64,000 nt of DNA from Heliocybe sulcata (lineage: Eukaryota > Basidiomycota > Agaricomycetes > Gloeophyllales > Gloeophyllaceae): positions 584,929 through 648,928 of the forward strand of contig ML213512.1 in the NCBI GenBank assembly GCA_004369045.1. Reading direction: 5' to 3'. Below the pieces are notes generated by a model. The model ran no database searches. It was not told the origin of the DNA and saw only the letters and a program-made list of their open reading frames with translations. The position numbers were made by a program, and so were the translations under genes. Shown piece by piece: positions 19,150-44,179 of the stretch (the stretch's first letter is position 1; every line of letters begins with the position of its first letter).

Positions 19150-20030
19150 CTCCATCCCCCGCGGACAACGACCGGAGATCCGTCAGCAAGCAAGCTCATT
19201 TGTGCTCGCGTTATGCCGTAGCTTAACCCGTGTTTTCAGGCTGCGAAGGAGCAGGCTACGAACGAGCGCGAATCTGCCCAAAGAATGTCGAATTTTGGAA
19301 AGATCAGCAAGCGGTCACCGATGACCTTTGGGCCGATTGATATTTCGCGGGCAAGCGGGACAAGAACAAGCGCGACTCGGCGATCTCACGGTTGGCGTCT
19401 GGCAACATGTTTGCTATGCTTACTAGTGCTGAAGTGGCGGAGTGGGCGGCTAAGCTTAGTCAACCATCAGTCCGGAAGCCTAGCATTGACTGGTTGCAGG
19501 CAGAAACTCCTTGTGAGCTGCTCCGGCGGAGGAAGATTCAGGTGCTGCTTCGGTCAAACCCTCTGACAGATGAAAAGTCGAAGGAAGAGATGCCTTCTGT
19601 GCCTCGCGCTGGATGCGAACCTATCATGTCCGAGGAAGAGGCCAAGCGAAGGATCGCAGAGGACTCGAAGGAGTTCTTCGCTGTCCGTGAGCTGAACGAA
19701 GCCGAGGGATACTTTACCAAGCTGTCTCCGGGACATCGGTTCCGTCTTGTCGACTCTTTGCTTAACAAGGCTATCGAGTCAATCGCTATCGACGCCGAGC
19801 TCGTCACTAGCCTCTTCCGTCGCCCTGCAGAGAAGCACCCAGGGTGCCCGAGCTGTTTATTATCATGATGAAAGGCGCTGGCTTGGACAAGCCCGTCCTC
19901 CGTTCTGTTATCCAAGTGAACCATGTTTTGCTATCGGCTGGACTGCTGGTCGCCCTGCCAAAGGTGGTGAACGCTCCGATTTGGTAAGATTAGCAAGCAG
20001 CGCTATACCCAGGAATGAGGGTCCACATGG
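19150..20030 (+). pseudogene. Broken eIF4G C-terminal copy (copy D)
   Basis: Similarity to the full eIF4G gene starts near 19150, in the exon coding for AEIHQQ, and runs through the following intron (GTAAGCTCAT-like start lost; acceptor tttcag at about 19237-19242) into the exon beginning AAKEQA-NERESAQRM. The Arg/Gln-rich segment after that is deleted. An open frame from 19392 carries a diverged linker and the MA3 start (MSEEEAKRRIAEDSKEFF, EGYFTKLSPGHRFRLVDSLL). A deletion of roughly 85 nt after LFRRPAEK removes part of MA3 and shifts frame. The end (about 19932-20000) repeats the GWTA-RPAKGG linker segment, as downstream of copy B. Retained intron sequence means a DNA-level duplicate. I consider it non-functional. 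Confidence 0.82.
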
Positions 20031-21175
20031 TTGAAGTACACCGGCGACGGGTATGGATGAGCTCAGCACTCCCGTATGTAACTTCTATCTTTTATTCATA
20101 ATAGTCAGGTCTTCCATTTATATATTTGTACACCAGGTACTGGGACTTACATGCAGCATGCTCTCCTGTAATCGGTCCCAAGTCAACGCCGCGCTCCGGT
20201 ATGGCAGCTGATGTTCCCCGACCTGCATGCTAGAAGGATTACGAGACCGAACAACGGTGCGGGTCTGGATTGGCATATCCGATCTCCTGATGTTCTCCTG
20301 ACAATAGCACACTGACGTTCGACTCGCAGACATACCCTTAATCCGATAATCCGAGGTGCCTGCTAAAATCTCAGACAACAGTACATCGAGGAACGTGGCG
20401 CCCGTGACAATGCGCTTCCTGGCTACGCCAATTGCGTAGAATGAACCACCTCCGCGTTTATGCCATCGACCTCCAAGACAATCTTTCGATCGGGACCGGA
20501 ACGCAGACCCCATCCCAGTGATCCCAGTGAAGTATATTCCACCGGACGCTTGTGGCATAACTCGCTCCCGTACCCGTCAGTTCCCGGTCCGCCAGTGGTC
20601 GGGCCTGGCAAGCACCGAAGGAAAATCGTGAGTGGCAACTTCGTTCGCATGGTGGCCACATTGCCGACGGCAAAAGAATTAGATGCAGTTCTCCTGCAGT
20701 CGTCGCTAGCAGCTACCGTCGCAGTCATGCGAGACGTGATTACGGTTTTCTGGGCGTAGAGGCCTGTCCTGACGATGTTGCCTTCAATGGAGTATTTCGG
20801 GTCGTGCTTTCCGTTCGACAAAAGCAGGTTCCGGCGGGAGACCCGGACCACTCAGGGTGGCAGTGCATCAACCCAAAAGCCTAATGGATCCAGGCACGCC
20901 AGTTTGCATATGCTGGGGACCGCACCGGCTCAAATTTCCGACGTATAAAAAGCGGCTGTTTCTTTCTCTCTCCCCCTCAGACATCCTATAGCCCTGAAGG
21001 CGAGAAACAAAGTATCCTCTAGAAAAGGCTCTTTCTTCCTGGAGTGACATCAGAAAGAGGCCAAGTATAGTAGGACCGGTGCGTAAGCAGGTTATTTACG
21101 TCTGACTGAAGCTTGTTCTTATCTGTGGCCGTCGACGATAATGCATGTTGCAGACACTCCTCCGACCCTGACGCA
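20031..21175. other. Intergenic with two overlapping minus frames
   Basis: Minus frames 20118-20558 (146 aa) and 20423-20851 (142 aa) overlap. The first contains RKRIVTGATFLDVLLSEIL, vaguely like the dinucleotide-binding start of an NAD-dependent epimerase, but lacks the GxxGxxG spacing and a full domain. They may be relics. The right end is the promoter of the arrestin gene. Confidence 0.35.
20944..20950 (+). promoter_or_regulatory. TATA box candidate
   Basis: TATAAAA followed by a C/T-rich stretch, about 230 nt before the arrestin ATG at 21176. Distance implies a leader of some 200 nt. Confidence 0.35.
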
Positions 21176-23873
21176 ATGGCGACCAAGCCCAGCAAAAACT
21201 CCCTGTCAATACGCTTGACCGAGTCAGTAGTGTTTCTCCGTGCTCCGGACGCCCTTGGCAGACGCCGTGCACAGGACTACGATGCCCCGCCTGCCCAGCT
21301 GCGAGGGCTTTTGACGTTGGACCTTGTCAAACCCACTAGGATCAAAAGCATTGAAGTCGAGTTGCAGGGAAAATCTAGCACCGCCTGGCCCGAAGGTGAG
21401 TGTCTTCTCCGACGAGTTGTGGCGCAAGCGGTGGCCTGAATCTTCAGGCTCTCGTAGGAGTGGGCGCGCGGCGGATAGAGGTCACGGAAGTACACAAGGT
21501 TTTCACGGCGTCGACGGTCTTCTTTCGTGCCGGTGCGACGCCAACGACGTCCTCGCGCCGCACGCTCTCAGTCGGTCCCGGGCTATCTCTGTACCACGAT
21601 GAGGAAGCTGTCATCAATGCGTTTAGACAGGACACGCCGCACGGAAGCCCTTCGAGAGAGCGCAGCCCGAGTCGCGGCGAGCGGGCGTCAAGACGGGTTA
21701 GCATGGATTACTCCCACTTCTCGCGCGACACCGTCTCGCATCGCGAGGAGACGCATGCTACGCCGCCCTACACACCGAGGCCGTCGTCGCCGGCTGTCAC
21801 GGAAGTCCAGCACCCTATGCTTAGTCCGACGTCGTCCACGGGTCACGTCGCCCAGGTCAGCCCTACAGCCTCGACGGCGCACGTAAACACCCCTGCGAGG
21901 TCGGAAGAGTATGCCTATCATCTGGAGGACTCTAGAGACAGATTGCGCGAGCAGCTGGAGGATCATCCAAGTGAGCCATCGCCTTTAACTCCACTGATCC
22001 AACGAGTAATGGATTTCATGCAGGCCCTGGTCGTCCAAACCCGCCGACTACGAACTCGTCCGCCTCGTCTCTCCACTCGTACCGCGGCGAGAGCTCCTCA
22101 CGGCGTGCGAGCCTCGACGCCGACCGCGATCCCTACCTCTCCTCGCGCGAGCCCAGCCGCATCCGCTCGCCCTCGCCACCCCCACACGGCGACGAACGTG
22201 GCCGCGCGAAGAGCAAGCGGTTCACGTTCGCCGCCGTCACGAACGTCATGGACCGGTTCCGCTCGAGCTCGCCGCGGATGCGGGTCGCGCCCTCGAGAGA
22301 CAGGGGGACGGAGCAGAGTGCGGATCGGGAGGGAGAGACAAGAAGAGGGAGGACGATGGAGAAGGGGAAGGGGAAGGAGACGACGGCGGATGAGACCGTG
22401 GGGAGGAAGGAAAAGTCGGCGCTGGGGAGGGTGGGAGAGCTGCTTGGGCTGGAGGAGGACAGTGATGAGTATGGGGATGGGTGGAAAGAGTTTAAGAAGG
22501 GTAAGTCGTATACCACTTCGATCTGCACAACGCCCTCAGTGTGGCCTTCCAGGCACCTACACCTACCCCATCTCCTTCACCATCCCTGCCGGATCGCCTC
22601 CCACACTTCAATGCGAATACGGCTCCGTCACCTGGCGGCTCAAGGCGACCGTGCATAGGCCGGGCGCGTTTAAATCCAAACTCACTGCGCAGCGGGAAGT
22701 CACGCTCGTCGCGTGCCCCGAGGAGGACGCGGAGGACAACGAGAACATTATTGTGGAACGGCAGTGGGACGATCAGTTGCAGTATTTCATATCGATAAGC
22801 GGGAGGACGTTCCATATCGGCGGGACGATGCCCGTGCATCTGACGTTGATGCCGCTGGCGAAGGTGAAGGTGTATCGGATCTCGGTGTTGCTTGAAGGTT
22901 AGCATCGTGCTCTCTGATGTGTTGGTGCTGGAGGCTGATGAAATCATCGCAGAGCGGGTAGACTACCTCGCCAATATGAAGCGCATCGTCCGCACAGATC
23001 CCATCAGGCGCTGGACCCTCCTCTCTCTCAAGCACGCTGACAAAGACGGGCCTCCACTACTCCCTCTAGATTCCGACGACCCTGACGCCTTCGCTCAATC
23101 TCCCCTCTCCACTGCCCTCATATCTTCTTTCCCCCGTGAAACCGACTCCTCCGAACTCGCCTCGTCGTACATGGGTCCCGGGCCTTGGGACTTCCACGCG
23201 GACCTGCAGCTACCCAGTTCGTGCGACCAAATTAACTTCACGAATAAGAACAAGAAGAGCAACATCAGCGTGAGCCACACGCTCAAGGTAGTGTTTAGGG
23301 TGGAGAGGGGGGATGACCAGTTCGTGGACCCGAAGACAGGGAAAAGAAAGATGTTCGATATTGTGGTGCAGACGCCGGTGCATATCCTTTCGGTGAGTGC
23401 CCAATCTCGTCTCGGTCGATGCGGTGAGATAGATGCTGATGGTGCTTTACGGTTCATAGTGTATGTGTAATCCTGACTGGATTGTGCTACCCCCGTACTC
23501 TGAGGCCGTCGGCAGCGACATCTTCTCCCAACCCCAAGCATGCCCGTGCAGGCGGAATCCTGGCCCACCTCTTGCCGCGGATGGCGAGGTCGTAGAAACG
23601 CCCGTACGTCCGAGACCAAGCCATCTCCATCACAACCACCTCGCATCCACCTCTGCAACGCCGACCCTCGAGCGCATCGACTCCCGTCGGTCGAGCGATT
23701 CATCGGAGGGCGAATCGCGGCCTCCGCCAATAGACCATTCCCCGTCACCGTCACGAGGCGATACTCTCGTCGAGCGTAGCAGGAGGTTCGAGCGCCTTGT
23801 AGCTGGGCAAGAGAGTGAGATGGGCGAGGCGCCCCCTCCTTACCAGGAGATCACTCGTGACCGCACCGCGTGA
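21176..23873 (+). CDS. Arrestin-related trafficking adaptor (ART/creD type)
   Basis: Six exons (21176-21395, 21458-21970, 22024-22500, 22553-22897, 22953-23392, 23460-23873), all in frame, give 802 aa. The arrestin N-terminal strands (LSIRLTESVVFLR, LRGLLTLDLVKPTRIKSIEV) are followed by a Ser/Pro/Arg-rich insertion of some 270 residues. Then come the second half of the N-domain (YPISFTIPAGSPPTLQCEYG, VTWRLKATVHRPGAF) and the arrestin C-domain (YFISISGRTFHIGGTMPVHL, KVYRISVLLEE). Near the C-terminus PPPY (in GEAPPPYQE) and LPPY are PY motifs that bind WW domains of Rsp5/Nedd4 ubiquitin ligases. Such adaptors direct ubiquitination and endocytosis of plasma-membrane transporters. The insertion, rich in SPSRERSPSRGER-like sequence, is a likely phospho-regulatory region. 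Confidence 0.92.
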
Positions 23874-24112
23874 GCTTCTCTTCTCCTTTATTTCAATGTT
23901 GCTTGGGACAACTCGGAAGACTATGTTTATTATGACTTATTTGCATGTATCGTAGAATACGTTCAATGGATGGCGTGTAGAGAGAGGTTTCTCCGTGAGA
24001 TTTGTAATGCATAGGGTGGCTAGAAGTACAATCTAATGAAGTTCTAAGAAATTTACAAGATGCGTGAATGTATCATGATACTCGTCGTATTGTCCGTAAG
24101 CGTCCTTCATGA

Positions 24113-27100
24113 CTATGTAGATTTTGTCCGAACATGACCGTTGGGGCTTCCTACAGCTGCGTCTTCTGGGATGTCCCCCATAGGGATATCCTCAGGAAAA
24201 CTGAAGTTCATGTTTGTCGCGCGCGACCGTCGGTAGTTGCTACTGCCGCTTCGCATGCTCCGTATACTGCGCGTTTCTGCCATAGTACCATCCGCCGCTG
24301 TCGCTTCGTCGCTCTGGGGGCGAAACTCGAAGGGTAGCATGACAGCCCGGTCGATGGCGACAGGGAGCCCTCTATGACGGCCGCGAAGCATCACGATGCA
24401 GATGATCAACTTGGATAAAGGCTGCAGCGCTCCGGAGAAAGAGTAGTTTGCCTGGAGAAGATGGTCAACCGCGGACGCAACATGTCCTGAAGGAAAGAAC
24501 CATACCGTCGGTAGTCCCAAACTCAGGCCCACCGTACCGTACGCGGATACGAGCTCGAAGACTGCGATGCACGATTATCAGTTCGAGCGGCCGTATGCAA
24601 GTGAGGACACTAACTGATAGCAAATATGGTGAACCAGGATTGATTGTCTTCGGCGTCCAGGTTGTGGCGCTATAACATCATCAATGAATGCCCCGGTGCT
24701 AGGGGACGTCGTCCCATACCTCGATGATGCATAGCAGGACCAGAGCCAGGCCCAGCCACCACATATCTATTCACGCGTCAGATACGATAATCAAGTGCAG
24801 AGCATTCCACTTACCGAACGCGAGCTGTTTCCGAGCATGCCAGGCAAGATATCGGCTCCATACAGCGACGCGGGGCCCGCTGGCCTGGAAATCGATATCA
24901 TTCTCTGACTCGTCATCATCTTCAAAGACTCCGAGCGACTGTTCTTCGTATACGTTGGTGGACCGCACGCTTCGCTTCAATCAGAGCACTGCCACAGCAT
25001 GACGAGTGCATACCAAATACCTCATCGCGATCGGATCTAGGGCAAGAGGATCAGTGGCACTTTCGAGCGCAGGGTACTGGGGTGCTTACAGACGCTGACA
25101 TACATCATAATCACGTAGAGGACTCTACCCATCGTATTCTGTCAGCAATCGGCTCCATTGACAGCAAGTTTGAATCCCTACTTGACAGCAGGAGCCAAGG
25201 CAGACAAAGCCACCGCGGAGAACCCGGCTGCTCGTACAGCAGTGGCTTGTAACAGTCCAACAATCACCCGTGTTCCTACAGGGACAGCTTGGATTTCCGG
25301 AGTGCCGATGTCTAGTACTAGGAATGACACCCAGTCCGTGCAGCTAAGCAGATATTTCATCAGGTCCGATTCAGCCTTGATAGAAGAATTTCGTACGTAA
25401 GTCCAAGGAGGACTATTAGGAGAAACCATGTCTGATGCGAAGGAAATAAATAGATGAAACAACGACGTGGGTGATCGAGCAAGAAGTGCAACGTCTCGTT
25501 TAACCTTGATTCCACAGGGACTAGTTTTGTCATTGTCCAACTTAGTGGCGACGTCAGCTTGCGATAAAGGAGAGATCACGAGAGGAAAGGGCTCACATTG
25601 TCAGGCGTAGACTGAGTGGCGTTGGTAATCTCAGCACCATGCGTACACGTTGAGACTCGAGCGCTTTACTCACAAGATGGGCTATATAAGGAGAAGTCAG
25701 TCGTACTATATTCATAGAGACGAAAAGCCAACACCCACAAATGCAGTATTACCGGCTAGAATTAGAAATATCATGAACACAATCATGGGATAGGCTGTCT
25801 GGAAGGGTATCATAGACTGATCCACGAGCGACATTCCGGTATTCGTGTACGTGGAGACCACTTGGAACAGGGCAAACCAGGGTGGAGGAAGGTCCCGATG
25901 CAAGGCAGGGGTCTTGAAGTCTGAACTCCAGCGGCTTTCCGACATGTACGGGCCGATGATGATGAAGCAGATACCTTGCACGAGGATGTGGTACTGCGGG
26001 CAGAAAATTGAGATGCGTCGAACGGGCGAGAGCCCCAAGCTTACCAATGCAACGATCCAGAGCAAGGCATTCAAGGCACGGTACTCAACCCCGCCAAGCT
26101 CCTCGAGCTGCTCGTTCGTAAGCTCATAGAACGCCGAGTTCCGCCCCACAATCGCATCAAACGAGATATACGGCACGGGCTTGACACCTGCTGGCACCTC
26201 TCCACGTTGCGAAGCAATAGTGGTCGTCATTGGCATAGTCATCGTCCTCTGCAGTTTCTGCTGCACCTGGGGAAAGAAATACCGAAACATGCGCGAGAGG
26301 ATCTCGTGCGGCATGGGGAAGCCTCCAAAGCCGCGATGCTTGGTGCGCACGCCATTGAGATAGGTCGGGGCGTGGATCGTATGTGCAGACATTGTCGGAC
26401 GGAGAGCTACGGAAGGTCGTCTTCCCGGTCCTGCGGCGTCGTCATGATGCGGATTATGGATAGATGAAAGGATGCTTACTTCGCTCCTCAGGTATGTAAG
26501 GGTCGATACTGGGTCTTCTCTGGCCGATGCTTTGTTCTGAGATGACAGATCCCCGCCTGCCTTTTTCTCGGGTTTCTCGTTGCCGACGGGGATCTGGCGC
26601 AAATTCGACGGTCTGTGTCCTAGGAAGCGGGGAAGCCTCCCGGGTCGTGTATGCTGCTACATTGACAGTAGGGAAGCGGCGAAAATGGGACTCGGTGGCT
26701 AAATACTGCGCGTGAAGGTCAACTCAGCGACTAAGTTGCAGCACCCACCAGAGACTGAACCAGATCGGAAACGGCCTGCCATCCCAGGATCAGATAGACG
26801 GCGGCCTCTCCTGAGATGAACAGCTCAATAAGGTAAACTGGGCACAAGCGTACGAATAGTACTACCTTGACTGTCCTTTTAACGACTCGGTCTCGGTGAT
26901 GTCGCCATCATGTTCTGAGCTGTCCGAACTCATGACTGAGTCCTGTCCCGGACTAGGCGGCAACTGGTCCGCGAAACTAAGTTGGTGATTCTGCTTTTGG
27001 CCTTGTACGTCGCGTGTATCTACCCGTCCATCGTTCGAAGAGGGCACTGTCGACTCCGTGAGCCCCTCACTTATCCATCCGCTAGGATCAACGAGTTTGG

Positions 27101-29733: not shown

Positions 29734-31847
29734 TTAGTTGTTGGTGTTCGTCCTTCTCTTGTTTATGGCACGAGCCCAATCGCTATCAGGCTCGGCTGCC
29801 GCCATGGCTATCATCGTCCTCGCTAACATGACCTTGAAATCATTCTCCTCGCCATTATGCTTGGCACGGCCAGCAGTCTGAAGCATGCTAGTAGACGCCG
29901 ACCCTGAGATGGTTGAACTTCCCGGCCTGGGCTTGCCTGCACGCGCATTCACGGAGGGAACGATAGGCCTGAGTGTTGTCGTCGGCTGCTTGCTGATCTC
30001 GCCAAAGTTGGAGAGGTCACCAGCTTTAGCAAGATGAGCAGCAGTCCAGTCGTCAGCCTGTGGCTGGTCCTGTCGGTCTTGTCCGCGTCGCGAGCCGCCG
30101 TGCGACATGGTATCCATTCTTTGGGAAGATTCGCGCTCGTTCATAGCCTGCTCCATCGCAGCCTGAAAGCACGGGTTAAGCTATAGAATAACACCAGCAC
30201 ACATGAGCTTACCTCTTGGTGGATCTCAGCGATTGTCTTCGGAGCCGCCATCGCGTTACGGGGTATCCAATTGCGGTGGCGCAATTCAACGACATCCTGG
30301 CAAGGCAGATCAGGAACGTCGAGACCGTCGAGAATAAAGACAACATACTTGTAACATGAACTGCAGACGAGGAGGAACTTTCGGGTTCTTTGCCAGCTCC
30401 TTCATACGAGCGAAGTAGATATCCATATATTGCTTCGCCCGCGGTGTGTCGAAAATCTGACCGATCGTCGTGAGCAGCTGGCACAAGCTTTCGATTTCCT
30501 CCTCCTCGGGGTTGTCGACATTGCTCAGCAGCTTCTTGATACACTCGTGCATGATACGCTCCGTCAGCATCTGTAGCTTGAACAACTCGCCAATGAACTT
30601 GACGAGACCAAGACCCTGCCGCTTGGCCTTCGCCGCAGCATAGTACTCCTCGGAGTACAACTCAGCCTCCTCCTCCTCCTTGCCTTCATTTGCTGCGGCG
30701 AGGGCGGCATCAGCAGAAGCCTTGCCCTTTGCAGCAGCAGCGGTACTCTCCTTCGCAGCCCAACCACGCTCGAAGTCTTCCTGACACCGGTTGAGGAGGT
30801 ACTTCCTGAACAGCTGCCCACCCGTGATGGGTTTGCCTTCCGTGTTCCGAATACCCTCGTCTTGCACATCGGGACTGATCTGCTCCATCATCTTCCGACA
30901 CAGTCGCGCATACATCTCCGACCAAGCAGCCTCGTCAGTGGCTTTCTCAAAGACCAACCGAATGACTTGGATGAGGGTCCGGCCATCCTTCTCCTTCTTA
31001 GACTTGTTCGCCCAGCCAATGATCTGGTCAGAAATGGACTCGAACCGCTCCATCGTGAGCTTGTTGAGCAGGCCACAGACCTTACGGTCCACGACCTCGG
31101 GCGAGTCGTCATTAACAGGCTTTCGTGCTGAGCTCTGTGGTACGCAGCGGTTCGCCGACGCCTGATGAGGCGCAACAGGCTCCAGTGGAGGACCCATAGG
31201 TGCACGTGGGTTCCCGGGCGTCTTCTGTATTGTAACAGGAGAGGATGTCGGTACAATCTCGCTGGGGACAATTGTAAAAGCACGTACGAAGGGTTGTGGC
31301 ATCTCCCCACTAAGCCAAAGCTCACTCAGGAGCTTCTGAACATCACAATGCGTGTACAATTTGGGTGATGCGATTGGCCTTGTCTTCGAGAGGGCCGCGG
31401 GAGGTATTGTAGGAGAAAGAGAAAGCGATGTGTAGTGCTTGGTAGGGAACTGCGCAAGATTTACGACCGGGCCCGAACTCGAAGTGGGAGTCTTTGGCGC
31501 AATTGAACACGGCTGGACATATGTCCCATTGCTCTCTTCCGATACAACGGGACCAGAGAGAACCTGAACGTTGTTCTGTGGTGAGTTATCAGCAGTAGAG
31601 TGCGTATGACCCTCTACAGCGGGCTCAGCAACTTTGCGTTGGGGGAAACGCGTTCTCAAGATCAGAGTCTGCAAGAATATGCTGAGTAGGATTTCAACAA
31701 ATGGATTAGCGTAGATACCGCTGGTTCCGTCGCACCCGAATTTTTTGCCGTAATTGCGACTTCAATAACAACGTCACCGTCCTGCCATTGCGTCTGGGTG
31801 CGGACGACGTCGTCCCCATGCAAAATCTGATACTGGATGGGGGGCAT
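29734..31847 (-). CDS. eIF4G paralog reduced to its MIF4G domain (copy A)
   Basis: Exons 31847-31719, 31668-31288, 31224-30349, 30296-30213 and 30162-29734 join in frame to about 632 aa. Residues 1-130 are new: MPPIQYQILHGDDVV, then a Ser/Pro/Thr-rich stretch. YTHCDVQKLLSELWLSGE-PQPF resembles the first exon of copy B. MIF4G occupies about 214-485 (VVDRKVCGLLNKLT to RLQFMLQ) and is almost identical to the full eIF4G. In that protein MIF4G binds eIF4A and RNA/eIF3. The tail keeps the NERESSQRM linker but then diverges and ends in INKRRTNTNN, so MA3 is absent. The segment holding the eIF4E-binding YxxxxLL motif is also absent. The 63-nt intron 31287-31225 is in frame and stop-free, so retention would add 21 residues. 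Likely a translation modulator; the function is inferred. Confidence 0.75.
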
Positions 31848-32199
31848 ATCCAGATACAAAACCGTCAAGTATGATAAGGTACGAACTATTCCACGCAGAT
31901 TACGCAAGGAACCTCGTGAACGTGAAGTGCGAGGCAGAGTTCGAAGAGGAGGAACTTGGCGAAGTGCGATGATCTAACCGAGATAAACCGCAGCAGATCA
32001 ATGTACTGTATGACCACGTGCCTCGCCTAAGTGATTTATTCAATGAAAAGCAAAAAAAAACCAAAATATTATATTCTGACACTTTGTCCTGCATCTGAAG
32101 CTGAGCGCTGAGCGCTGAAGCTCAAAGAATAGGGTCGTAGCTAATTGTACAGCCGTCGGGGCAGAGTGTCGGTAGAACTTCACGACAGCGTACTCGTCT

Positions 32200-32799
32200 A
32201 CCTAGGATGACTTCGCTTGAGATTAGACTGTCCCTACTGCCCTTGACGGAGATAATGCCGAGAAAGTCATCAGATACAGCAGCAGGCGAAGGCGGGCTCA
32301 AGAGGTATTCGGACATAGGATGATTCACGCGATGGGATGAGAAAACGGACACATTAAGCAAGAAACGAATGGGAAGCTGCGACGTGAATATCGAGGTCAC
32401 TGCCATGCAAACAGTCGATCTGAGCAAGAGGATCCAACTGAAGCTGCGACATGGATAAACATGAAGCGTTGCATTCAGCTCTTGCTGCCCGTCCATCTCT
32501 TGTTATGCGACGCGCCAATCGTTGTCAGGCTCAGCTGCGGCCATGGCCAAGATCATTCGTGCTGCTAAGAGCCTGCGCTCGCTTTCCTCGTCATTAGGCT
32601 CGGCAGTGTCAGCATTCTAAAACATGCTACTGGAGGCCAATCCTGGGATAACTGGACTGCCCGACCTCTGATCGCCCGCACGTGCATTTGCGGAGGAAGC
32701 GCTAGGCGTGAAGGTCATTGTTGACTGCTCGCTGATCCTGCCAAAGTTGGAGAGATCACCACCTTTGGCAGGACGAGCAGCAGTCCAGCCGTACGTAAC
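32200..32799 (-). pseudogene. eIF4G linker fragment (fragment C)
   Basis: Directly after the copy B stop, the minus strand reads GWTAARPAKGGDLSNFGRIS, a second copy of the linker that copy B already has internally. It continues with a relic of the copy-A-type tail (ANARAGD, then a stop after SSSMF, then AMAAAEPDNDW). The final part and 3' flank match that of copy A. It has no start and is interrupted, so it is a remnant of another duplicated unit lying between B and A. Confidence 0.7.
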
Positions 32800-35747
32800 C
32801 TACAAATCAAGTGGGGTTGACAACATGGAGATGAGCTTATCCTTGTCCATCGACTTGTCAACAATGCGATCACGCCGCTCCAGATCCTTGTCCAAGCCAG
32901 CGCCTTTCATCATGATAACAAATAGCTGGGGCGCCTTGGGTACATCGACAGCAATATCGTCGATGAACTCGGCAGTGTCCATGAAACCCTCCTCAAAAGC
33001 AGCCGATGAGCACAGGCCCTTCTCAGCAGCCCGAAGGAAGAAGCGAGCGACGAGCTCGGCGTCGGCAGCCTTTGACTCGATAGCCTTGGTAAGCAAAGAG
33101 TCGACAAGACGGAACCGATGCCCCTGAGGCAGCTTGGTAAAGTATTCCTCGGCTTCGTCCAGATCGCGGATAGCGAAGAACTCCTTCGAGTCCTCCGCGA
33201 TCCTCCGCTTGGCCTCTTCCTCGGACATGGTAGGTTTATATCCTGCGCAAGAAGCAGAAGGCATCTCCCCCTTCGACTCTTCATCTGCCAAATGCCTCGA
33301 CTGAGGCAGCAGCTGAATTTTGCTCCCCTCGGTTGGTTGAGGGGGAGGGCCTGCCTGCAGCCAGTTAACGCTAGGCTTCCGACTTCGTGGCCCACTGGGC
33401 TTAACCGCTTCAGGAGCATTAAGCATAGCGGAAATGTTGCCAGACGTCGACCATGAAATCGCCGGCTCGGACATCCTCGGTGACTGCATGCTGATCTTGC
33501 CAAAGTTCGTCAGGTCCCCAGCCTTGGCAGGACGAGCAGCAGTCCATCCGTAAGCCCGTTGCTGGTCCTGTCGGTCTTGTCCGCGTGGTGAGCCGCCGCG
33601 CGACATGGTGTTCATTCGTTGGGCAGATTCACGCTCCTTCATAGCCTGCTCCTTCACGGCCTGGAAACGGGGGTTAAGTTATGGCATAACACCAGCACGC
33701 ATGAGCTTACCCGTTGATGGATCTCAGCGATCGTCTTGAGAGTCGCCATCGCGTTACGGGGTATCCAATTGCGGTGACGCAATTCAATGATATCCTGGCA
33801 ATGCAGATTAGGAACGTCGAGACCGTGGAGAGCAAACACCACATACTTGTAACATGAACTGCAGACGAGGAGGAACTTTCGGGCTCTTTGTCAGCTCCTT
33901 CATACGAGCGAAGTAGTTATCCATATATTGCTTCGCCCGCGGTGTGTCGAAAATCTGACCGATCGTCGTGAGCAGCTGGCACAAGCTCTCGATTTCCTCT
34001 TCCTCGGGATTATCGACGTAGCTCAGCAGCTTCTTGATACACTCGTGCATGATACGCTCCGTCAGCATCTGCAGCTTGAACAGCTCGCCAATGAACTTGA
34101 CGAGACCAAGACCCTGCCGCTTCGCCTTCGCCGCAGCATAGTACTCCTCGAAGTACAGCTCGGCCTTGCGCTCGGCACCGGCACTCTTTTCAACCGCCGA
34201 ACCACGCTCGAAGTCTTCCTGACACCGGTTGAGGAGGTACTTCCTGAACAGCTGGCCACCTGTGATGGGTCTGCCTTCCGCGTTCCGAATACCCTCGTCC
34301 TGCACATCGGGGCTGATCTGCTCCATCATCTTCCGACACAATCGCGCATAGATCTCCGACCAAGCAGCCTCATCAGTAGCCTGCTCAAAAACCAACCGAA
34401 TGACCTGGATGAGGGTCCGGCCATCCTTCTCCTTCTCAGACTTATTCGCCCAGCCAATGATCTGGTCAGAAATGGACTCGAACCGCTCCATTGTGAGCTT
34501 GTTGAGCAAGCCCCGGACCTTACGATCCACGACCTCGGGAGAATCGTCATTAACAGGCTTGCGTGCTGAGCTCTGCGGTACCCAGCGGTTCGCCGATGCC
34601 TGGAGAGGTGCAACAGGCTCCAGTGGAGGACCCATGAGGCCACCTGGCGGCTGGTGCTGGAAGGACATCTGACCAGGACCGCCATTCTTGTCTCCCGGGC
34701 GCTTATTGCCCCGATGACTGCGTGTTCGTCCAGAGCCAGACGCGCCTGGGCCGCCTTGACTGGGTGTGCGGGATATCGCAGGAGGACGGCCACCAAACGC
34801 AGATGCACCACCCGGGCCGCTGGGGCCAGGGCGAGCACCACTTGCCATGGCAAACCGCTCCTCGCTGGACAGTTTACTCGTGGGTGTTGCGAACTGTCCC
34901 ATAGCGAAGCCACCTGGCTTGCCGAAAGACGAGATACCAAGACCAACGGAGGCCTGGCGGGAGAGAGCGGGAGGTGTAGACATCGCCGCCCCGCGGTTGC
35001 CACGTTGAGAGCCACCCTGGGACATGTAGTGCTCGCTAGCAGGCTCGATACCCATCGCGTCCAAGGGCGGAAGGCGGTCGGGCTTCTCCTTGCAAATCGG
35101 CATGAACTGCAGGAGGAAATTGCGGTCATATCTACCAAAATTCGTCAGAACCTACTTCTACAACACGCGACAAGTTGAGTACGCACACGAACTTGCCGTC
35201 CCTCGCGTTCACATTGAGCTCGGGTTTGGGCCTCTGTATGCCTTCAGGATAGCTAATACTATTCAAGTCAACAATGCTGCGCGCGGCAGCAACCGTAAGT
35301 GAGAAGGGCTGGGAAATATTGGTTTGTCGAGTGCTGGAAAGATCAAGAGGTCCAGGGCGGTGTTTCTGCTGAGAAGGAACAGCGGTGTCGATCAGTAGGA
35401 GTTCTTTGTCCTTTGAGTCCTGCTCCTCGCTATTCTTATCCTTGGTCGCAACAGGTGCCAGCTCCTTCACCTCCATTTCAGGCTCGGCAGGCTTCTCCTC
35501 CGCAACCCTGGCCTTACGATTCGCGGATGCCTGAAGAGAAGGAAGGAGGTGCAGCGCAACATCCATACGGGCATCTGAGGGAGAGGCCATCTTCTGCACA
35601 GTAACAAAAGCGACAATCAGTAAGTACCATTTGCTTGCAGCCCACAGTAATAATACGCACGAAGGGCTGCGGCGTCTCGCCAGTCAGTGAAAGCTCATCC
35701 AGGAGTTTCTGGACCTCATGGTTCGTGTAAGCTTTTCGTTCTGTCAT
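32800..35747 (-). CDS. Short eIF4G paralog with eIF4E motif, MIF4G and MA3 (copy B)
   Basis: Exons 35747-35661, 35593-35187, 35131-33847, 33794-33711 and 33660-32800 keep frame, giving about 907 aa. Residues 1-29 (MTERKAYTNHEVQKLLDE) form a new first exon shared in diverged form with copy A. Residues 30-165 correspond to the acidic and HRPGPLDLSSTRQTNISQP region of the parent. YDRNFLL (about 166-172) matches the eIF4E-binding consensus YxxxxL-phi. MIF4G lies at about 363-620 and MA3 at about 763-876 (TMSEEEAKRRIAEDSKEFF to IMMKGAGLD). Lost against the parent are the roughly 500-residue Pro/Ser-rich N-terminus and the long Glu/Lys/Arg helix. The acidic/Ala-rich insertion inside MIF4G is shortened (SAVEKSAGAERKAELY). 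Domain content resembles plant eIFiso4G. All junctions have usable GT..AG signals, although the donor after residue 164 has changed to GTGCGT. Confidence 0.78.
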
Positions 35748-36303
35748 ATTGCTTGGCTCTGTGAGCTGGTGAAGTGGATCCAGCAGAACGAGGATGAAGC
35801 GTGGAGAGAGGGCGCTTATCTGGCTTGCATCAGATGAAGGGCGCCCCGTGTTTGCATTCCTAATCCAGTCAATGCGCAGTGAATGAATACTTGACTAGTC
35901 CCCACGCTTCAGAGAACATGTATCAGGTTCATATTTAGTCCTCGAATCATGACAATTACTAACTGCACCTCGTCTTTCATGTACGGTATCGCACCGAGTG
36001 TTATTAGAGTGGAATAACTCGAATATAGCTCGGAAAACCACGCATAACTTCATGGCCCTATAACAGAACATATTCATGAGAACAATAAGCGTTGAGAAGT
36101 CATTTTGATGATTCTTTCTCTGGTTTGAAGCGTTTAGAAGATGCTGCTCCGAGCGTGTCGTATAGGACCATTCACATTCACCTACAGGTTCAAACTCCGC
36201 GGCAGTCCGCTTCCCTAAACCGGTGCCACGTTGAACGCGCCTCAATCTGCCTCAATAAATTCGAGTCCGTTTCCACCTCTCTTCTTCCTTAGGCCTTCCG
36301 GCC
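35748..36303. other. Head-to-head promoter region
   Basis: Shared upstream region of copy B (-) and the dynactin subunit gene (+). No TATA box recognised. Short frames only. Confidence 0.45.
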
Positions 36304-37044
36304 ATGGAGGCGCCCATCTATTACTCCAAGTCAGAGTTCATCGAAACCGTAAGAAATACCTTTTACAATCCCGCGTGCTGGCAGCCTGACAGCGCAGCAG
36401 GACACAGGGAACAAGGTCTCGCGTCGTGCCACGATCGCAGGTCCGCAGAACATCATCCTAGGCGGAAAGACCGTCATCGCAACCGGCGCAATCATCCGTG
36501 GCGATTTGAGGCGGACGGGACCTGGCCATGCGGTCGTGATTTCTCTGGGGAGGTATTGTTTGATCGGGGAGGGGTGTGTGATGAGGTAGGTGGCGTGTAG
36601 TGAAAATTGTTTGAGCGCGTTTATGCATAGCAGATGGATGGAAAAGGCCGCCTTACAAGACATACCGGGGTAACTTCAACTACTATCCTATGAAACTTGG
36701 TGATCACGTCCATATTGGCGCGAACTCGGTCGTGGAGGCGGCTACTATTGGGAATCATGTTGAGATTGGGAAGAACTGTGTTATTGTTGGTATTCCCTCC
36801 GCTCTGTCTGCTTGGCATAGTAGTTGACGTTGCGAGCGCGTAGGGGAAGTTCACGATCATAAAGGACTGCGCGAAGATTGCGGACAACACGATCATTCCG
36901 CCGAATACCGTTATCCCTGCGCTGTCCCTCTTTGCCGGCTCGCCTGGGCGTTATGTCGAAGACTTACCGGAGTCGACGATGGAGGTCGTCGAATCGCGGA
37001 CAAAGTCGTATTATAGACGCTTTATGCCCTTTGAAGGACGATGA
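36304..37044 (+). CDS. Dynactin subunit 5 (p25)
   Basis: Four exons. The first is 36304-36348 (MEAPIYYSKSEFIET), the second begins at 36398 or 36401, and the stop is at 37042-37044; the product is about 190 aa. The body is a left-handed beta-helix of hexapeptide repeats: NIILGGKTVIATGAIIRGDL, YCLIGEGCVMR, VHIGANSVVEAATIGNHVEI, GKNCVIVG, CAKIADNTIIPPNTVIP. This is the arrangement of p25 in the pointed-end complex of dynactin, which adapts dynein to cargo such as early endosomes in hyphae. The junction before PPYKTYRGNF needs the acceptor GGAAAAG rather than the nearby GCAG, which breaks frame. Confidence 0.92.
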
Positions 37045-39316
37045 TCCTCCGCACTCCTGTATCAAGATCGTCCCAGATACCCGCAAGCTTAAGATACAGG
37101 ATTGATGACATAGGGTGTGGTTCCTCAGTTGCGAAATCGTTTCGTCTGAGCTGACACATCTTTCAGATGGGATGCGTATCCTCTACGTGTCAGCGCTAAT
37201 TGTACTTTTACATGTCTCATGGAATATGCTTGTAACACGATGAACTCTGTATACAACCAGGTGCGTGAGTAGGAACCGTATCTGAGACGGGACATCTGTC
37301 TGATGTATCTACTCAAGCTTGGTCATGCGCGACCTGTTCTGCAAAGATTGCCTGCTCTGAGGATCTGTCCGAGTCTAACTTCATGATGTCCAGCGTGGTA
37401 ACGATGTGAGTCTTCTTACCGACCACATATCTCGGTGATGAAAATACATCGCTGCGTTCTTTCGGAGTTTTCTTTGACGATAGCGAATAACCCATGTCTT
37501 CTGAGCATTCATCTTCCCATCCTTCCTTCATGAGATTCTAACTTCGTCCTCTTATCTAGTCTTCTCTCTGTCGCTCGCATCATCCAAGGAGATATCCAGC
37601 CATGTGAGTGTCGGCTTGCTCGCGTGCTTCCCAGTCGTGCGAGTGCCATATGATGCATAATATCCCATTATTAACCAGACTCTGATCCCTGAGATGAGTC
37701 GTGATCACCACCCTCTGACTTGGAGTGGTTTTCTTCCTTCTCCGTCTCCTCGTTTCGTTCGGGCACTGACCTTCACTTCTAGGCTGCTTAAGCACTACTA
37801 CCAACTTAAATTTTGATGCCGGTTGATATCCCAGTATTGATGGTGAGAGTCTACGTGCATGTTCATGATGCCATCGTGCTATGTTTTCGAGATGATAACC
37901 TTTCAACGGCGCACATACGCACCTCCACGGAGATGTCATGGTGACTTTGTTGTTTATGTACCATCAAATTCTGAACTTTTCCTCAGAGTTCTGGTCTTCC
38001 TTCGCTGCATGAGCTGACCTGGACTTCCACTTTTGTTAGATGACGGGTTAATTCGGCCTGTTCGGAGGTGACTATTGGATGCTGTTGGTACGTCTCATAA
38101 TGGAAGCTGTTGAGAACAATGTTTTGATTTTCCAAACCAGTCTTGGCGAGGTTTTTGTCCTGCAGATTACCGATATCGCTGGATATACTTCGTTTGTACG
38201 GGCTGATGGGTGCCCTGTACCACCCTCGGGTACTTGTCAGCGTTAGACCTTAGAATGTATCGAGCCGGACACTTTAGTCAAATCCAAGTGACCTGGATGG
38301 CTGGCTCGATACGCTCTAAGGTACCCGGTTCCGCGGCCGTCCTCTGAGTGTCGGTCTCAGGACGCACATTCCCCGGAGATATTTTTGCTCGTATCGCCGT
38401 TATCGCCTCTGATGCGACGGCTTCTGAAGGTATGGTTTTGGAAGAAGAGGGTGCTGAAGCGTTTGCCCAGGTGATCTCCGGATTTGGCGTTACAAGACGA
38501 TGACATCGTGTGGGACCCTGGGAACCTTGGGCACGGCAACGGTGTTGCGCCGGTGTTCAGTCGGTAGTAAGTTCGGGGCCGCGGATTGCTGTGAACTGAC
38601 TCGAGAGCATCGCCTCCTGACATGGCAGCAATGCCGGAGGGAATGCGCGTACACATAGGGCTAGTTTGCGGGAGCGTCGGTACTTGGTTTTGTTCCTCCT
38701 GTGGCGGACGTGCTGTCACGTCCCTAGACGGATGCTGGTATGGGAGTGGCTGGTTAATAGCGCTTATGTGAATGCCCCCGTGTTTCGCATTTTAATTTCA
38801 TGGAGAGTGATTCTGCCTGCTGCCTGTTGCCCACCTCGATGCGTGTTGCCATAAGTAGAACTGAATTACTGTTACATGCGTACTGAGCATGGTAGCCTCG
38901 CGATTTCATGACAATGGTCGCGACCCGAGGTATCTGGGGCAGACGAACACCATTATTTGATCTGGGCCATTATATTGCCGGCCGGGGCTGGGGGTGACCC
39001 GGGTCTTCCTGGTGACGCCGAATGTTTTACAGGCGTCGCACGGAGCCGGGCATACATCTTTCGTCCTTACTCGTAGGACAGGATTGAGCGGACCGCTATA
39101 CTCAGCGTCCGACCCTCTTTTCCCGCCAACTTCCACTTGCGACTGTTTGTTCGCCTGCTGGCAGGTCATATTTACGACCGACCCACACGCGCGACGTACT
39201 CCCTGATATCTGACAAATCACCGCAAAATCCAAAATTCGTACGTCGTCGCAGTCGAAGAGCGCGCGCGCGACACTCACGCTTTTCTCCCGAATTTTTGCC
39301 ATTTTTTGAGCCCAGG
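37045..39316. other. Long upstream region of eIF4G
   Basis: 2.3 kb without a supported gene. Minus frames at 37313-37531 (72 aa) and 37580-37939 (119 aa) have no domain. The last 200 bp before 39317 are rich in CG dinucleotides (cgcgcgcgcg near 39262) and probably form the eIF4G promoter and leader. Confidence 0.45.
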
Positions 39317-42300
39317 ATGAGCAAGGTTTCCTCTAGTTCACAATCGAAGATTCCTTCCCAGCTTCCGTCAAAGTCAGCTTGGGCACGGGGACCCCCTCAG
39401 AGCACTTCCTCAGCTTCCTCGCCCCGCACTCAGTCGCCTGCTCCAACCAGCGCGACCCCGCCAGCCACTGCGACACATTCTAGACGTCCTAGTGCTCTTA
39501 CTGGTCAGGGTGTCTCGATAAAGGATGGCGTATCTGTACCTAGGAGCAATGCCGGGCATGTCAAGCAGGGTGAGTACGATGCAGTTTATTGAAGTAGGGC
39601 GTTGATTGTTAATCCTGCACCAGCATCGTCCGTTACGTTTGGTTCGATAGATGACGCGTCTTCGGCGCCCATATCCTCTTCCCCAGCCAGCATACCGGCT
39701 ATAAAGGCCGAAACCGTAAAATCGTTCGGGACTGTACCCGCGTCACCGTCGCCGACGTCCGTAAATGGCAAGCAGCCCGTAGGATCTGTACGAGGAGCCA
39801 ACGGATCATCTAATGGCACATCAACCTCATCCACAAGCGAGGCTAAGAAGCCATTCAGCAAGTTTGACGTCAAACAGCTCTTCCAGAATCCAAGCTCGAG
39901 CTCTCCTACACCTTCTGTATCATCACCACTGCCATCGTCCTCTCCATCCGTTCGACCATCGGCATTGCCCCCTCAGCACACTCCGCCTGCCTCGCAGCTG
40001 GGCAACGGCCCGTATACCCCCTTTACACCTAGCGCGCAATTTAGAACACCTACGACTCCTGCTAATGGACCTGCCGGACCTGGCCAGCCTCCGCGTTCCC
40101 CGGTGTCTTTCAGACCGATGGCGAATGGCGCAGGCGGCGCTGGCGCTCGGCCGTCGACGGGTCCCACACCTCCTGCGGGTCCGCCCCAGGGCATGCCCGC
40201 TGCTATGCCTAGTCCGCGCATGACACCCCACCCTCACCCTGCGACACCGGCGGGGTTGCCGCCTGGTACACCCGTTGGTTGGCAGCCGTATGCATACGTG
40301 AGTCCACGCTATTCGAATTGGTTGCAATACTAGACTGACGTCTTCTCCAGTCCTACTATGTACCTGGTCTTCCTGCGGAACACTACATGCAGCCGCACTC
40401 GCCATACGGCCAATGGATGCCTCCGCAAGGCTTCCAACCTCCTCCGCAACATCCCCAAGCTCATATGCCCCATGTTCCGCCTGGTCCGCCAGGACCTCCT
40501 CACTCCGGTATGCCTATGTCCCCACGAAATCCTCCGCCACCGTTACAGGGACCCGGAACGCCCACGCCTTCACATGCTGTCCCTGCCCAACATCAACACG
40601 TGCCCTCGAGTACTGCAAGTACCATCTCCTCTCCTCCCTCCACTCCCTCTACCCTTGGCCCAGCCGGGCCTACCGGCAACGCCCGCTTAAACTCCGGGGC
40701 CAGTGCATTCGTTCCTCGGCAGTCAAAGATCGTCATCAAGAGTATTGATGGCCAGGAAGTCGACTTGCGTGCATTGGGAAAGACGCCATCGCAGTCTGGT
40801 GCACCGGTTGCCCCACCTTCACCTGCTCCTAGCCCTGCTCGGCGGTCCACCATCCGTATGGAGACGGAGGAGGCGAAGAACAAGCGGCTAGCGGAGGAGA
40901 AGGAGAAGGAGCGAAAGAAGGAGGAAGAGGAGGAGCGGAAGAGGAAGGAGATCGAGGAGAAGGAAAGGAAGGAGCGCCAGGAGGTGGAAAAGAAGAAGAG
41001 GGAGGAAGAGGAGCGCGTGCAGCGGGAGCAGGACGAGAGGAAGCGGAAGGAGGAGGAGGAGGTGAGGAGGAAGGAGGAGGAAGATAAGGAGAGGATGCGG
41101 AAGGAGGAGGAGGAGAAGGAGAGGGTTAGGAAAGAGGAGGAGGAGAAGGTGAGAGTTGAGGAGGAGAGGAAGAAGAAGGAAGAGGAGGAAAAGCAGGTTA
41201 AAAGGGAAGAAGAGCAGAAGAAACGGAAGGAGGAGGAAGAACAGCGGATGCGTGAAGAGGAGGAGAAGCGGAAGGAGGAGGAGGAGGCGGAGGCCGCCAA
41301 GGCCAAGGCCGAGACACCGGCCCCGCCACCTGAGGAGAAGCCTGCCGAGCCTGAGATGGAGGAAGGCGAGGTGAAGGAGGAGGCACCTGCTGCGGCTGAG
41401 GAAGAGAAGAAGGACGAGGAGCAGAAGCCAAAGGACAAGGGACCCTTGCGGATCGATACCGCTATTCCTTCTCCGGAGCAGAAACGCCGCCCTGGGCCTC
41501 TTGATCTTTCTAGCACTCGCCAGACCAATATTTCCCAGCCCCTCCCCTCCGCGCTTGCTACTGCGCGCATTATTGATGACTTGGGGAGTGTCACCTATCC
41601 TCAAGGTATCCAGAGCCCGAGGCCGGAACTTAATGCGAATGCGAAGAACGGCAAGTTCAGGTGAGTCTGAGATATGTCGCGTGGTCCTGGGACGTCCACA
41701 GATGATCTTTTGTAGATATGACCGCGATTTCTTGCTCCAGTTCATGTCAATCTGCAAGGAGAAGCCCGACCACCTTCCACCCTTGGACGCCATCGGTATC
41801 GAGCCTGCTAGCGACCACTACATGTCTCGTGGTGGCTCGCAACGTGGCAGTCGCTCAGCAGCGATGTCTACACCTCCCGCTCTCTCCCGCCAGGCCTCCG
41901 TTGGTCTTGGTATCTCGTCTTTCGGCAAGCCGGGTGGCTTCGCTATGGGACAGTTCGCAACACCCACGAGTAAACTGTCCAGCGAGGAGCGGTTTGCCAT
42001 GGCAAGTGGTGCTCGCCCTGGCCCCAGCGGCCCGGGTGCATCTGCGTTTGGTGGCCGCCCCCCTGCGATGTCCCGCACACCCAGTCAAGGCGGCCCAGGT
42101 GCGTCTGGCTCTGGACGAACACGCAGTCATCGGGGTAATAAGCGCCCCGGAGACAAGAATGGCGGTCCTGGTCAGATGTCCTTCCAGCACCAGCCGCCAG
42201 GTGGCCTCATGGGTCCTCCACTGGAGCCTGTTGCACCTCTCCAGGCATCGGCGAACCGCTGGGTACCGCAGAGCTCAGCACGCAAGCCTGTTAATGACGA

Positions 42301-44179
42301 TTCTCCCGAGGTCGTGGACCGTAAGGTCCGGGGCTTGCTCAACAAGCTCACAATGGAGCGGTTCGAGTCCATTTCTGACCAGATCATTGGCTGGGCGAAC
42401 AAGTCTGAGAAGGAGAAGGATGGCCGGACCCTCATCCAAGTCATTCGGTTGGTCTTTGAGAAGGCCACTGATGAGGCTGCCTGGTCGGAGATGTATGCGC
42501 GGCTGTGTCGGAAGATGATGGAGCAGATCAGTCCCGATGTGCAGGACGAAGGTATTCGGAACGCGGAAGGCAAACCCATCACGGGTGGGCAGCTGTTCAG
42601 GAAGTACCTCCTCAACCGGTGTCAGGAAGACTTCGAGCGTGGTTGGGCTGCGAAGGAGAGTACCGCTGCTGCTGCAAAGGGCAAGGCTTCTGCTGATGCC
42701 GCCCTCGCCGCAGCAAATGAAGGCAAGGAGGAGGAGGAGGCTGAGTTGTACTCCGAGGAGTACTATGCTGCAGCGAAGGCCAAGCGGCAGGGTCTTGGTC
42801 TCGTCAAGTTCATTGGCGAGTTGTTCAAGCTGCAGATGCTGACGGAGCGTATCATGCACGAGTGTATCAAGAAGCTGCTGAGCAATGTCGATAACCCCGA
42901 GGAGGAGGAAATCGAAAGCTTGTGCCAGCTGCTCACGACGATCGGTCAGATCCTCGACACACCGCGGGCGAAGCAATATATGGATATCTACTTCGCTCGT
43001 ATGAAGGAGCTGGCAAAGAACCAGAAGGTTTCTTCTCGTATGCAGTTCATGTTACAGGTATGTGGTGTTTGCTCTCCACGGTCACGACTTTGCTGATTTG
43101 CATTGCCAGGATGTCATTGAATTGCGTCACCGCAACTGGATACCCCGTAACGCGATGGCGGCTCCGAAGACGATCGCTGAGATCCATCAACAGGTAAGCT
43201 CATAGGTGTTGGTGTTGTTCCATAGCATAACCCGTGCTTTCAGGCTGCGAAGGAGCAGGCTATGAACGAGCGCGAGTCTGCCCAAAGGATGAACACCATG
43301 TCGCGCGGCGGCTCACGACGCGGACAAGACCGACAGGACCAGCAACAGGGTGACGGATGGACTGCTGCTCGTCCTGCCAAGGCTGGCGATCTGTCGAACT
43401 TTGGCAAGATCAGCAAGCAGTCACCGATGACGTTCGGGCCGAGTGGTATCTTCGCAAGCAAGAAGGAGATCAAGGAGAGCAAGCGCGACTCGACGATTTC
43501 GCGGTCGACGTCTGGCAACATGTTCGCTATGCTCAATAATGCTGAAGCGGCTGAGGCGGCGGCTAAGCCCAGTAGGCCTCCAAGTCGGAAGCCCAGCGTT
43601 GACTTGTCGCAGGCAGGCACTCCCTCTGAGCCATCCCAGCGGAGGAAGATTCAGCTGCTACCTCGGTCGAAGCCTCTGGAAGATGAAGAGTCGAAGCCAG
43701 AGACGCCTTCTGCTTCTCGCGCTGGATCTGACGATGGGGAGGAGGCTGATGGCGAGCCTACCATGTCCGAGGAAGAGGCCAAGCGGAGGATCGCAGAGGA
43801 CTCGAAGGAGTTCTTCGCTATCCGTGATCTGGACGAAGCCGAGGAGTACTTTACCAAGCTGCCTCAGGGACATCGGTTCCGTCTTGTCGACTCTTTGCTT
43901 ACAAAGGCTATCGAGTCAAAGGTTACCGACGCCGAGCTCGTCGCTGGCCTCTTCCGTCGCGCTGCCGAGAAGGATCTGTGCTCACCGGCTGCTTTTGAGG
44001 AGGGTTTCATGGGTACTGCCGAGTTCATCGACGATATTGCTGTCGATGCACCCAAGGCGCCCGAGCTGTTTGCTATCATGATGAAAGGCGCTGGTTTGGA
44101 CAAGGACCAGGAGCGGCGTGATCGCATCGTTGACAAGTCGATGGACAAGGACAAACTCATTTCCATGTTATCATCATAG
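39317..44179 (+). CDS. eIF4G: Translation initiation factor eIF4G, full length
   Basis: Six exons: 39317-39569, 39624-40297, 40351-41660, 41716-43057, 43110-43193, 43244-44179; about 1532 aa. Residues 1-470 are Ser/Pro/Gly-rich and disordered, with aromatic patches, probably the Pab1/RNA-binding part. A long Glu/Lys/Arg helix follows at about 480-660. RRPGPLDLSSTRQTNISQP precedes the eIF4E-binding motif YDRDFLL at 747-753, which is split from its Arg by intron 3. An Arg/Gly-rich stretch comes next (SRGGSQRGSRSAAM, RTRSHRGNKR). MIF4G, about 945-1215, binds eIF4A. MA3 lies at about 1394-1507. The protein bridges cap-bound eIF4E, eIF4A and the 43S complex. It is the only copy in the window with all parts and is presumably the essential one. 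The second intron acceptor was chosen at 39623 because nearer AGs lead to stops. Confidence 0.95.
40858..41320 (+). other. ER/K-type single alpha-helix coding tract in eIF4G
   Basis: About 150 codons almost wholly Glu, Lys and Arg with few hydrophobics (for example EEEERKRKEIEEKERKERQE), encoded by a nearly pure purine strand. Alternation of E4 and (R/K)4 fits a stable single alpha-helix rather than a heptad coiled coil. The extreme A/G bias also creates long meaningless minus frames (40593-41594 Ser/Phe-rich and 40888-41793 Leu-rich). Confidence 0.7.

Follow-up and report, generated by a model that had tools for sequence, protein, structure and literature searches.

A candidate birth-and-death cluster of partial and chimeric eIF4G copies in the fungus Heliocybe sulcata

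Introduction

The initiation factor eIF4G is usually regarded as a slow-changing scaffold. Plant eIFiso4G (PMC3352336) has an eIF4E site, a MIF4G domain and an MA3 domain without a long N-terminus, is conserved across plants and carries signature motifs of its own. Animal DAP5 (eIF4G2; PMC9726905) keeps MIF4G together with MA3 and W2 domains and has no eIF4E site; its MIF4G alone bound mRNA and failed to restore reporter translation. Kinetoplastids and dinoflagellates independently duplicated eIF4G into sets of isoforms (PMC5862402), and gene fusion can make a new gene from parts of two others, for example in Oryza (PMC9199173). Here we describe eIF4G-derived genes in a stretch of 64,000 nucleotides (nt), called the window below, from the basidiomycete Heliocybe sulcata (Gloeophyllales; GenBank assembly GCA_004369045.1, contig ML213512.1, positions 584,929 to 648,928 of the forward strand; this contig is C10 in our numbering). 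The window holds four such loci: a complete eIF4G (the parent), two paralogs, A and B, in inverted orientation beside it, and a decayed copy, E. We consider it probable that they form a birth-and-death cluster made from eIF4G, in which A and B would be chimeric genes with selected cores, sequence exchange with the parent and predicted functions of their own.

Paralog A shares with eIFiso4G the eIF4E site, MIF4G, MA3 and the absence of a long N-terminus. Unlike eIFiso4G, it was seen in H. sulcata only, is 85-88% identical to its parent in DNA and starts with sequence of an orphan gene family; in a tree of MIF4G cores it groups with H. sulcata eIF4G. The plant iso4G H1-CT signature was not seen in A by eye, where the region PRNAMATLKTIAEIHQ is parental with P1212L; no search was made for the N-terminal motif of iso4G. 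Paralog B resembles DAP5 in keeping MIF4G without an eIF4E site. A DAP5-like protein would have MIF4G and MA3 and no eIF4E site; because B has no MA3 match, and has a fused orphan N-terminus as well, it is not classed as DAP5. The expansion is lineage-specific, as in kinetoplastids and dinoflagellates, but its copies are partial, clustered and chimeric rather than duplicated isoforms. In contrast to the Oryza fusions, an orphan-family partner is joined to the body of a core translation factor, and the copies may have been homogenised with the parent. Titles and abstract beginnings in the literature on fungal or Agaricomycete eIF4G paralogs or fusions held nothing on point, and none of six papers naming H. 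sulcata deals, by its title, with this locus.

A cluster of four eIF4G-derived loci

All copies are related to the parent far beyond chance at the DNA level: B is 94% identical over 1212 nt, A is 88% identical over 1344 alignment columns and 85% over 1436, and E, about 24 kb away, is 80% identical over 581 columns. Gene models of the parent, A and B were built in this analysis (Table 1). MIF4G (PF02854) was matched in all three at 168-171 bits (cut-off 30.8), and MA3 (PF02847; cut-off 23.2) in the parent at 37.0 bits and in A at 39.4 bits. The eIF4E-binding motif reads YDRDFLLQF in the parent and YDRNFLLQF in A. Paralog A is without roughly the first 640 amino acids (aa) of the parent, and its MIF4G has a 20-aa deletion. 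Paralog B is made up of the first two exons of the orphan family, MIF4G and a diverged linker with a new end; the eIF4E motif is absent from B, and its last open stretch has no Pfam match to MA3.

A first-pass annotation had counted five loci here. Its complete gene and its two paralogs, read as full spliced genes, are borne out by the models, with no internal stop in A, and its broken C-terminal copy at about 19150-20030 corresponds to E. Its fifth locus, a "linker fragment" at 32200-32799, belongs instead to locus A, because it starts directly after the A stop codon, and its alignment covers the 3' end of B as well as sequence past the B stop; it is thereby ruled out as a separate locus. The broader claim of a local eIF4G expansion in which copies keep different domain subsets is supported, and two of the copies look functional from their sequence.

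A genome-wide DNA search with the 3' part of eIF4G (31.6 Mb in 51 contigs) gave seven matches, every one within the cluster. A MIF4G family search of the genome found three matches in the cluster and four on contigs C4, C12 and C28. Comparison of the window with itself (low-complexity filter on, matches above 100 nt, E 1e-10) brought out eIF4G pieces and the B-type tail and nothing else. The eIF4E family (PF01652) has five matches in the genome; they are spread over three contigs (C14, C8 and C1), at one place on each, and form no local cluster. An assembly artefact of collapsed or misjoined repeats is scarcely credible: A and B have diverged from the parent by about 6-15%, their 5' exons, tails and flanks are distinct, and the cluster lies in the interior of a 1.12-Mb contig, while nothing was found in favour of such an error. 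Collapse in particular is ruled out, as the copies are too different.

All 13 introns in the models of the parent, A and B are GT-AG introns of 50-67 nt, and those common to the parent and the copies have the same place, length and phase. An origin of the copies as processed retrocopies is ruled out because A retains parental introns 3-5 and B retains parental introns 4-5.

Table 1. Features of the eIF4G cluster, in positions of the window
Feature	Position	Strand	Exons or content	Length
Parental eIF4G	39317-44179	+	exons 39317-39569, 39624-40297, 40351-41660, 41716-43057, 43110-43193, 43244-44179	1532 aa
Paralog A	32800-35747	-	exons 35747-35661, 35593-35187, 35131-33847, 33794-33711, 33660-32800	907 aa
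A exon 1	35661-35747	-	end of orphan-family exon 2 (YTNHEVQKLLDELSLTGETPQPF); intron immediately after PF	
A exon 2 start	35516-35593	-	divergent relic of B-type junction (KMASPSDARMDVALHLLPSLQASANR), 5' of the longer eIF4G piece	
3' remnant of the B-type gene ancestral to A ("linker fragment")	32190-32799	-	in-frame stops; 74% identical to B tail over ~320 nt	
Paralog B	29734-31847	-	exons 31847-31719, 31668-31288, 31224-30349, 30296-30213, 30162-29734	632 aa
B exons 1-2	31288-31847	-	orphan-family N-terminus; both family introns, phase 0	
Copy E	19175-~20000	+	pseudogene with intron, linker and MA3 from the 3' part of eIF4G, then B-type tail as in A; several deletions	

Chimeric structure of the paralogs

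The first exons of A and B, as read from the sequence, are not eIF4G, and this chimeric nature was overlooked by the first-pass annotation. Both genes begin with a motif absent from the parent, approximately [YW][ST]xx[QED]Vxx[LF][LF]...P-x-[PA]-F, with an intron directly after it. The motif belongs to an orphan gene family, of which five free-standing genes were found in the H. sulcata genome, at C31:166220, C6:1239369, C20:225532, C30:40657 (minus strand) and C10:5237. The family plan is an exon 1, a phase-0 intron, an exon 2 ending in P-x-[PA]-F and a second phase-0 intron. Every element of it is found in B, including the first exon that the free-standing members carry, and the B introns at 31718-31669 and 31287-31225 lie at the family positions, both in phase 0. 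The plan is likewise predicted in the members on C6, C31 and C20 and in the one at C10:5237, where the second intron directly follows PF in phase 0; in the C30 member only exons were seen. The NCBI models P0122 (C6) and P0121 (C31) agree with the predicted exon joins to the end of exon 2. A further locus, C21:276896, was dropped as a member when no family exons were seen around it.

The family was found only in this species. A three-member profile searched against 5.8 billion proteins, with E up to 10, returned two matches, both from H. sulcata (P0121 and P0122), and fast-evolving relatives elsewhere could be missed by such a search. Three members gave no Pfam match. The structure prediction of P0121 with P0122 was poor, with a mean predicted local distance difference test score (pLDDT) of 46. 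The first exon of the members is predicted as strands, a helix motif ends in PxPF, and several members have a basic third exon; only the C6 and C31 genes came back as database proteins.

In B, the eIF4G piece starts just before LEPVAPL, introns included, behind the first two orphan-family exons. A fusion breakpoint shared at LEPVAPL was considered as a sign of mechanism and rejected, because the sequence before LEPVAPL is poorly conserved and alignments tend to start there. Intron 2 of B (63 nt) is open in frame, and a form retaining it would read through to give 653 aa. The NCBI model P0001 (453 aa) is identical to B from MGPPLEP to the end and leaves the earlier part of B uncovered.

Paralog A shows only the end of orphan-family exon 2 and the second intron. 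The sequence upstream of A scored at best 32 against exon 1, at the low end of the range between members (31-125) and without a shuffled control, so we claim no exon 1 for A. At the start of A exon 2, the relic KMASPSDARMDVALHLLPSLQASANR resembles the pre-MIF4G block MGPPLEPVAPLQASANR of the parent and B; in local DNA alignment it scores 42 with the parent and 38 with B, where the best of 500 single-base shuffles reached 36 and 35, respectively. B-type relics thus flank both sides of the longer eIF4G piece of A, which runs from EEKPAEPEM to about the parental stop codon. Given this 5' relic and the 3' tail remnant, A looks like a B-type gene in which the longer parental piece took the place of the middle, and the 3' remnant is, on its alignment, a derivative of the older gene that received the eIF4G segment. 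Copy E has the same MA3-to-tail junction as A, and both lack the same 24 nt of the parent; A and E therefore share ancestry.

Apparent selection on the copied cores

Nonsynonymous and synonymous divergence (dN/dS; NG86) over MIF4G is 0.039/0.180 for parent and A and 0.016/0.136 for parent and B, and over MA3 it is 0.038/0.210 for parent and A. A neutral simulation of 4000 runs was also made, in which all differences were put on the copy. The MIF4G of A has 24 amino-acid changes where 39.6 are expected, that of B has 11 against 26.5, and the eIF4E-site region of A has 42 against 62.6; none of the 4000 neutral runs was as low in any of the three. The MA3 of A has 12 changes against 20.3 (P 0.0005). 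When the simulation was rerun with 30% of the silent differences assigned to the parent, P was 0.003 for the MIF4G of A, 0.00025 for that of B and 0.005 for the eIF4E-site region. Two ungapped blocks of E are consistent with neutrality (29 changes against 31.9 expected and 16 against 15.7), and the simulation thus sets the cores of A and B apart from an internal pseudogene. These results indicate purifying selection on the MIF4G of A and B.

Mosaic pattern and residue changes

In a three-way alignment, A agrees with the parent at 60 variable sites, B with the parent at 65, and A with B against the parent at 25, with all three different at five. The part from 42952 onward holds 21 of the 25 A=B sites, and A=B sites stand next to each other more often than in 5000 shuffles (P 0.0058). 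Between 42204 and 42379, A alone differs once and B alone 17 times. Such a mosaic is consistent with patchy gene conversion between the A/B core and the parent, and we infer this suggested history from the site pattern.

The changed residues were compared with 78 full-length fungal eIF4Gs (longer than 1400 aa and with the eIF4E motif; P0177 left out). B carries L921H, at a leucine found in all 78, and W928C, at a tryptophan found in 77; L1159F is present in both A and B at a leucine found in 77. The W928 position we take to be that of yeast W579, presumably an eIF4A contact; no paper was found for the contact. At this site yeast eIF4G (2VSO) reads SANRW and B reads SANRC.

Are the paralogs dying duplicates?

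A and B could be recent dying duplicates that are readable by chance or by conversion with the parent, with E and the tail remnant showing their future. E and the remnant have already decayed, B is without the eIF4E site, MA3 and W928, and the chance of meeting no stop codon was 0.10-0.52 in each of four simulated segments. Such a history is nevertheless hard to reconcile with MIF4G changes so far below the neutral expectation in both copies. Conversion erases differences, yet it would not leave the remainder mostly silent, and the orphan-family introns of B are intact. We regard this explanation as doubtful, though likelier than the other alternatives.

Several of our own results weigh against a selected, functional cluster. 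The MA3 signal of A falls to P 0.036 when 30% of the silent changes are given to the parent. The linker of A, with 40 changes against 41.5 expected, is consistent with neutrality. A is also changed at five residues found in all 78 full-length proteins (M1005I, W1056S, A1063G, S1092F and P1212L), which could mean loss of function; W1056 and A1063 adjoin the MIF4G deletion. The neutral linker and the altered invariant residues are both what a dying copy would show. The mosaic could come from uneven rates instead of conversion, and none of the database proteins among the matches listed (120 of 1694; 120 of 1983) could be recognised as A. The case for A and B is, finally, drawn from sequence throughout. 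We still consider a birth-and-death cluster with selected cores the probable explanation.

eIF4G copies in other Agaricomycetes

The first-pass annotation assumed that fungi normally carry one or two dispersed eIF4G genes, and this premise is not supported by the Agaricomycetes surveyed. Fourteen sets of eIF4G proteins on one contig were picked by hand from the matches listed (120 of 1694; 120 of 1983), with contigs of equal size within a species taken as the same contig. In 13 of these, from H. sulcata and 12 other Agaricomycete species, the proteins are distinct, 47-93% identical within a set. Somion was set aside, as its two proteins seem to represent a single gene modelled in two ways; the closest pairs kept are those of Armillaria gallica (93%) and Pleurotus pulmonarius (92%). 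The contigs range from 104 kb to 4.1 Mb, and the same contig does not mean neighbouring genes. Closeness was shown only for Sanghuangporus baumii, by the consecutive locus tags ACEPAG_3282 and ACEPAG_3283.

A tree of 95 MIF4G cores, of which 92 came from database proteins picked by hand out of 223, was read without regard to support values. In it A and B form a sister pair adjacent to the H. sulcata parent, inside a group that also holds Neolentinus and Gloeophyllum. In other genera, short copies mostly fall with their own genus or close relatives, and for Sanghuangporus and Paxillus three short copies join one another inside the genus. Own-genus grouping is not demonstrable for some genera, such as Armillaria, because the tree had no full-length protein from them. 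No ancient clade of short eIF4Gs across unrelated genera was seen among the 95 cores. No short copy from Neolentinus or Gloeophyllum was among the matches listed (120 of 1694). The eIF4E motif is absent from 76 of 221 database proteins; this count was set aside as evidence because many models, including the H. sulcata model P0005, start near parental residue 756. From this survey, which covered eIF4G alone, the H. sulcata cluster looks like one case of a recurrent eIF4G pattern, and partial copies seem to have originated independently in other mushrooms.

Some database models join an eIF4G MIF4G core to another domain: a dynamin-like GTPase in Hermanssonia (P0042 and P0044), BTB in Armillaria solidipes (P0079) and a kinase in Marasmius (P0114). 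They may be real fusions or merges made by gene prediction.

The copies might instead be a counter-measure that mimics eIF4G to mislead a mycovirus or another element exploiting it, diversified by fusion and conversion. Separate short copies in many Agaricomycetes and the fused database models would fit such a role. So would P1212L of A, at the proline of the H1-CT motif; in Arabidopsis, the cum2 change of that proline inhibits Cucumber mosaic virus (PMC3352336). The correspondence was aligned by eye, and P1212L is one residue among 24 changes, which makes it a weak pointer. We think a decoy improbable, since no virus was seen, the core has no sign of positive selection, with dN/dS well below 1, and the fused models may be merges.

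A wider proposal is that, across Agaricomycetes, eIF4G keeps giving rise to partial, chimeric copies, its MIF4G cores being repeatedly copied, often on the contig of the parent, joined to unrelated N-termini (the orphan module in H. sulcata; dynamin-like, BTB and kinase domains in the models from other species) and kept by selection as a useful eIF4F-binding core with a new targeting or sensing domain. This generalisation is speculative and, at present, unlikely. If true, such a core with its new domain could, for example, act as a decoy for elements exploiting eIF4G, or it could be a switch dedicated to translation.

The parental gene and its surroundings

The full-length plan of the H. sulcata parent is the same in Neolentinus (P0123) and Gloeophyllum (P0124). 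Its NCBI model, P0005 (772 aa), matches parental residues 756-1532 at 99.4% and does not cover the first half of the gene. Several models from other species likewise begin near residue 756. The motif AKKPFSKFDVKQLFQ in parental exon 2 resembles the helix motif of the orphan family and is partly retained in Neolentinus and Gloeophyllum. A repetitive stretch rich in Glu, Lys and Arg (40877-41292) lies in the parental N-terminus, upstream of the segment that A and B share with the parent. Just 3' of the gene are two tandem 30-nt repeat units that are 93% alike (44378-44437), and exons of a major-facilitator transporter follow downstream (45272-46475; MFS_1 and TRI12 matches).

Proposed origin and function of the copies

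The birth-and-death cluster that we favour could have arisen in the following way. B would have come from a partial eIF4G, introns included, that was copied in inverted orientation next to the parent, where it follows the first two exons of an orphan-family gene. A longer eIF4G piece would then have been placed within a B-type gene to give A, and E, which shares the 3' junction of A, would be decaying. The cores of A and B may since have exchanged sequence with the parent by gene conversion.

Paralog A most likely acts as a short eIF4G; it would bring together the eIF4E site, MIF4G and MA3 without the long N-terminus, on a plan comparable to that of plant eIFiso4G. Paralog B may bind eIF4A, eIF3 or RNA through its MIF4G and would be unable to reach the cap through eIF4E. 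Because the eIF4E site, MA3 and the near-invariant tryptophan W928 are lost, B more probably serves as a competitor or dedicated adaptor than as an initiator, and its partner would be set by the orphan N-terminus. The first-pass annotation had suggested tissue- or stress-specific translation control or a decoy role for the copies; either is conceivable, and what B has lost would suit a competitor or decoy better than an initiator.

Implications

The orphan family clearly illustrates how exons specific to one lineage can be joined to a core gene and keep their introns. If this lineage repeatedly yields selected, shortened and fused forms of eIF4G, they would provide natural tests of how far the functions of eIF4F (cap binding, helicase coupling and ribosome recruitment) can be separated. 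They would also be natural tests of whether translation factors are copied as decoys.

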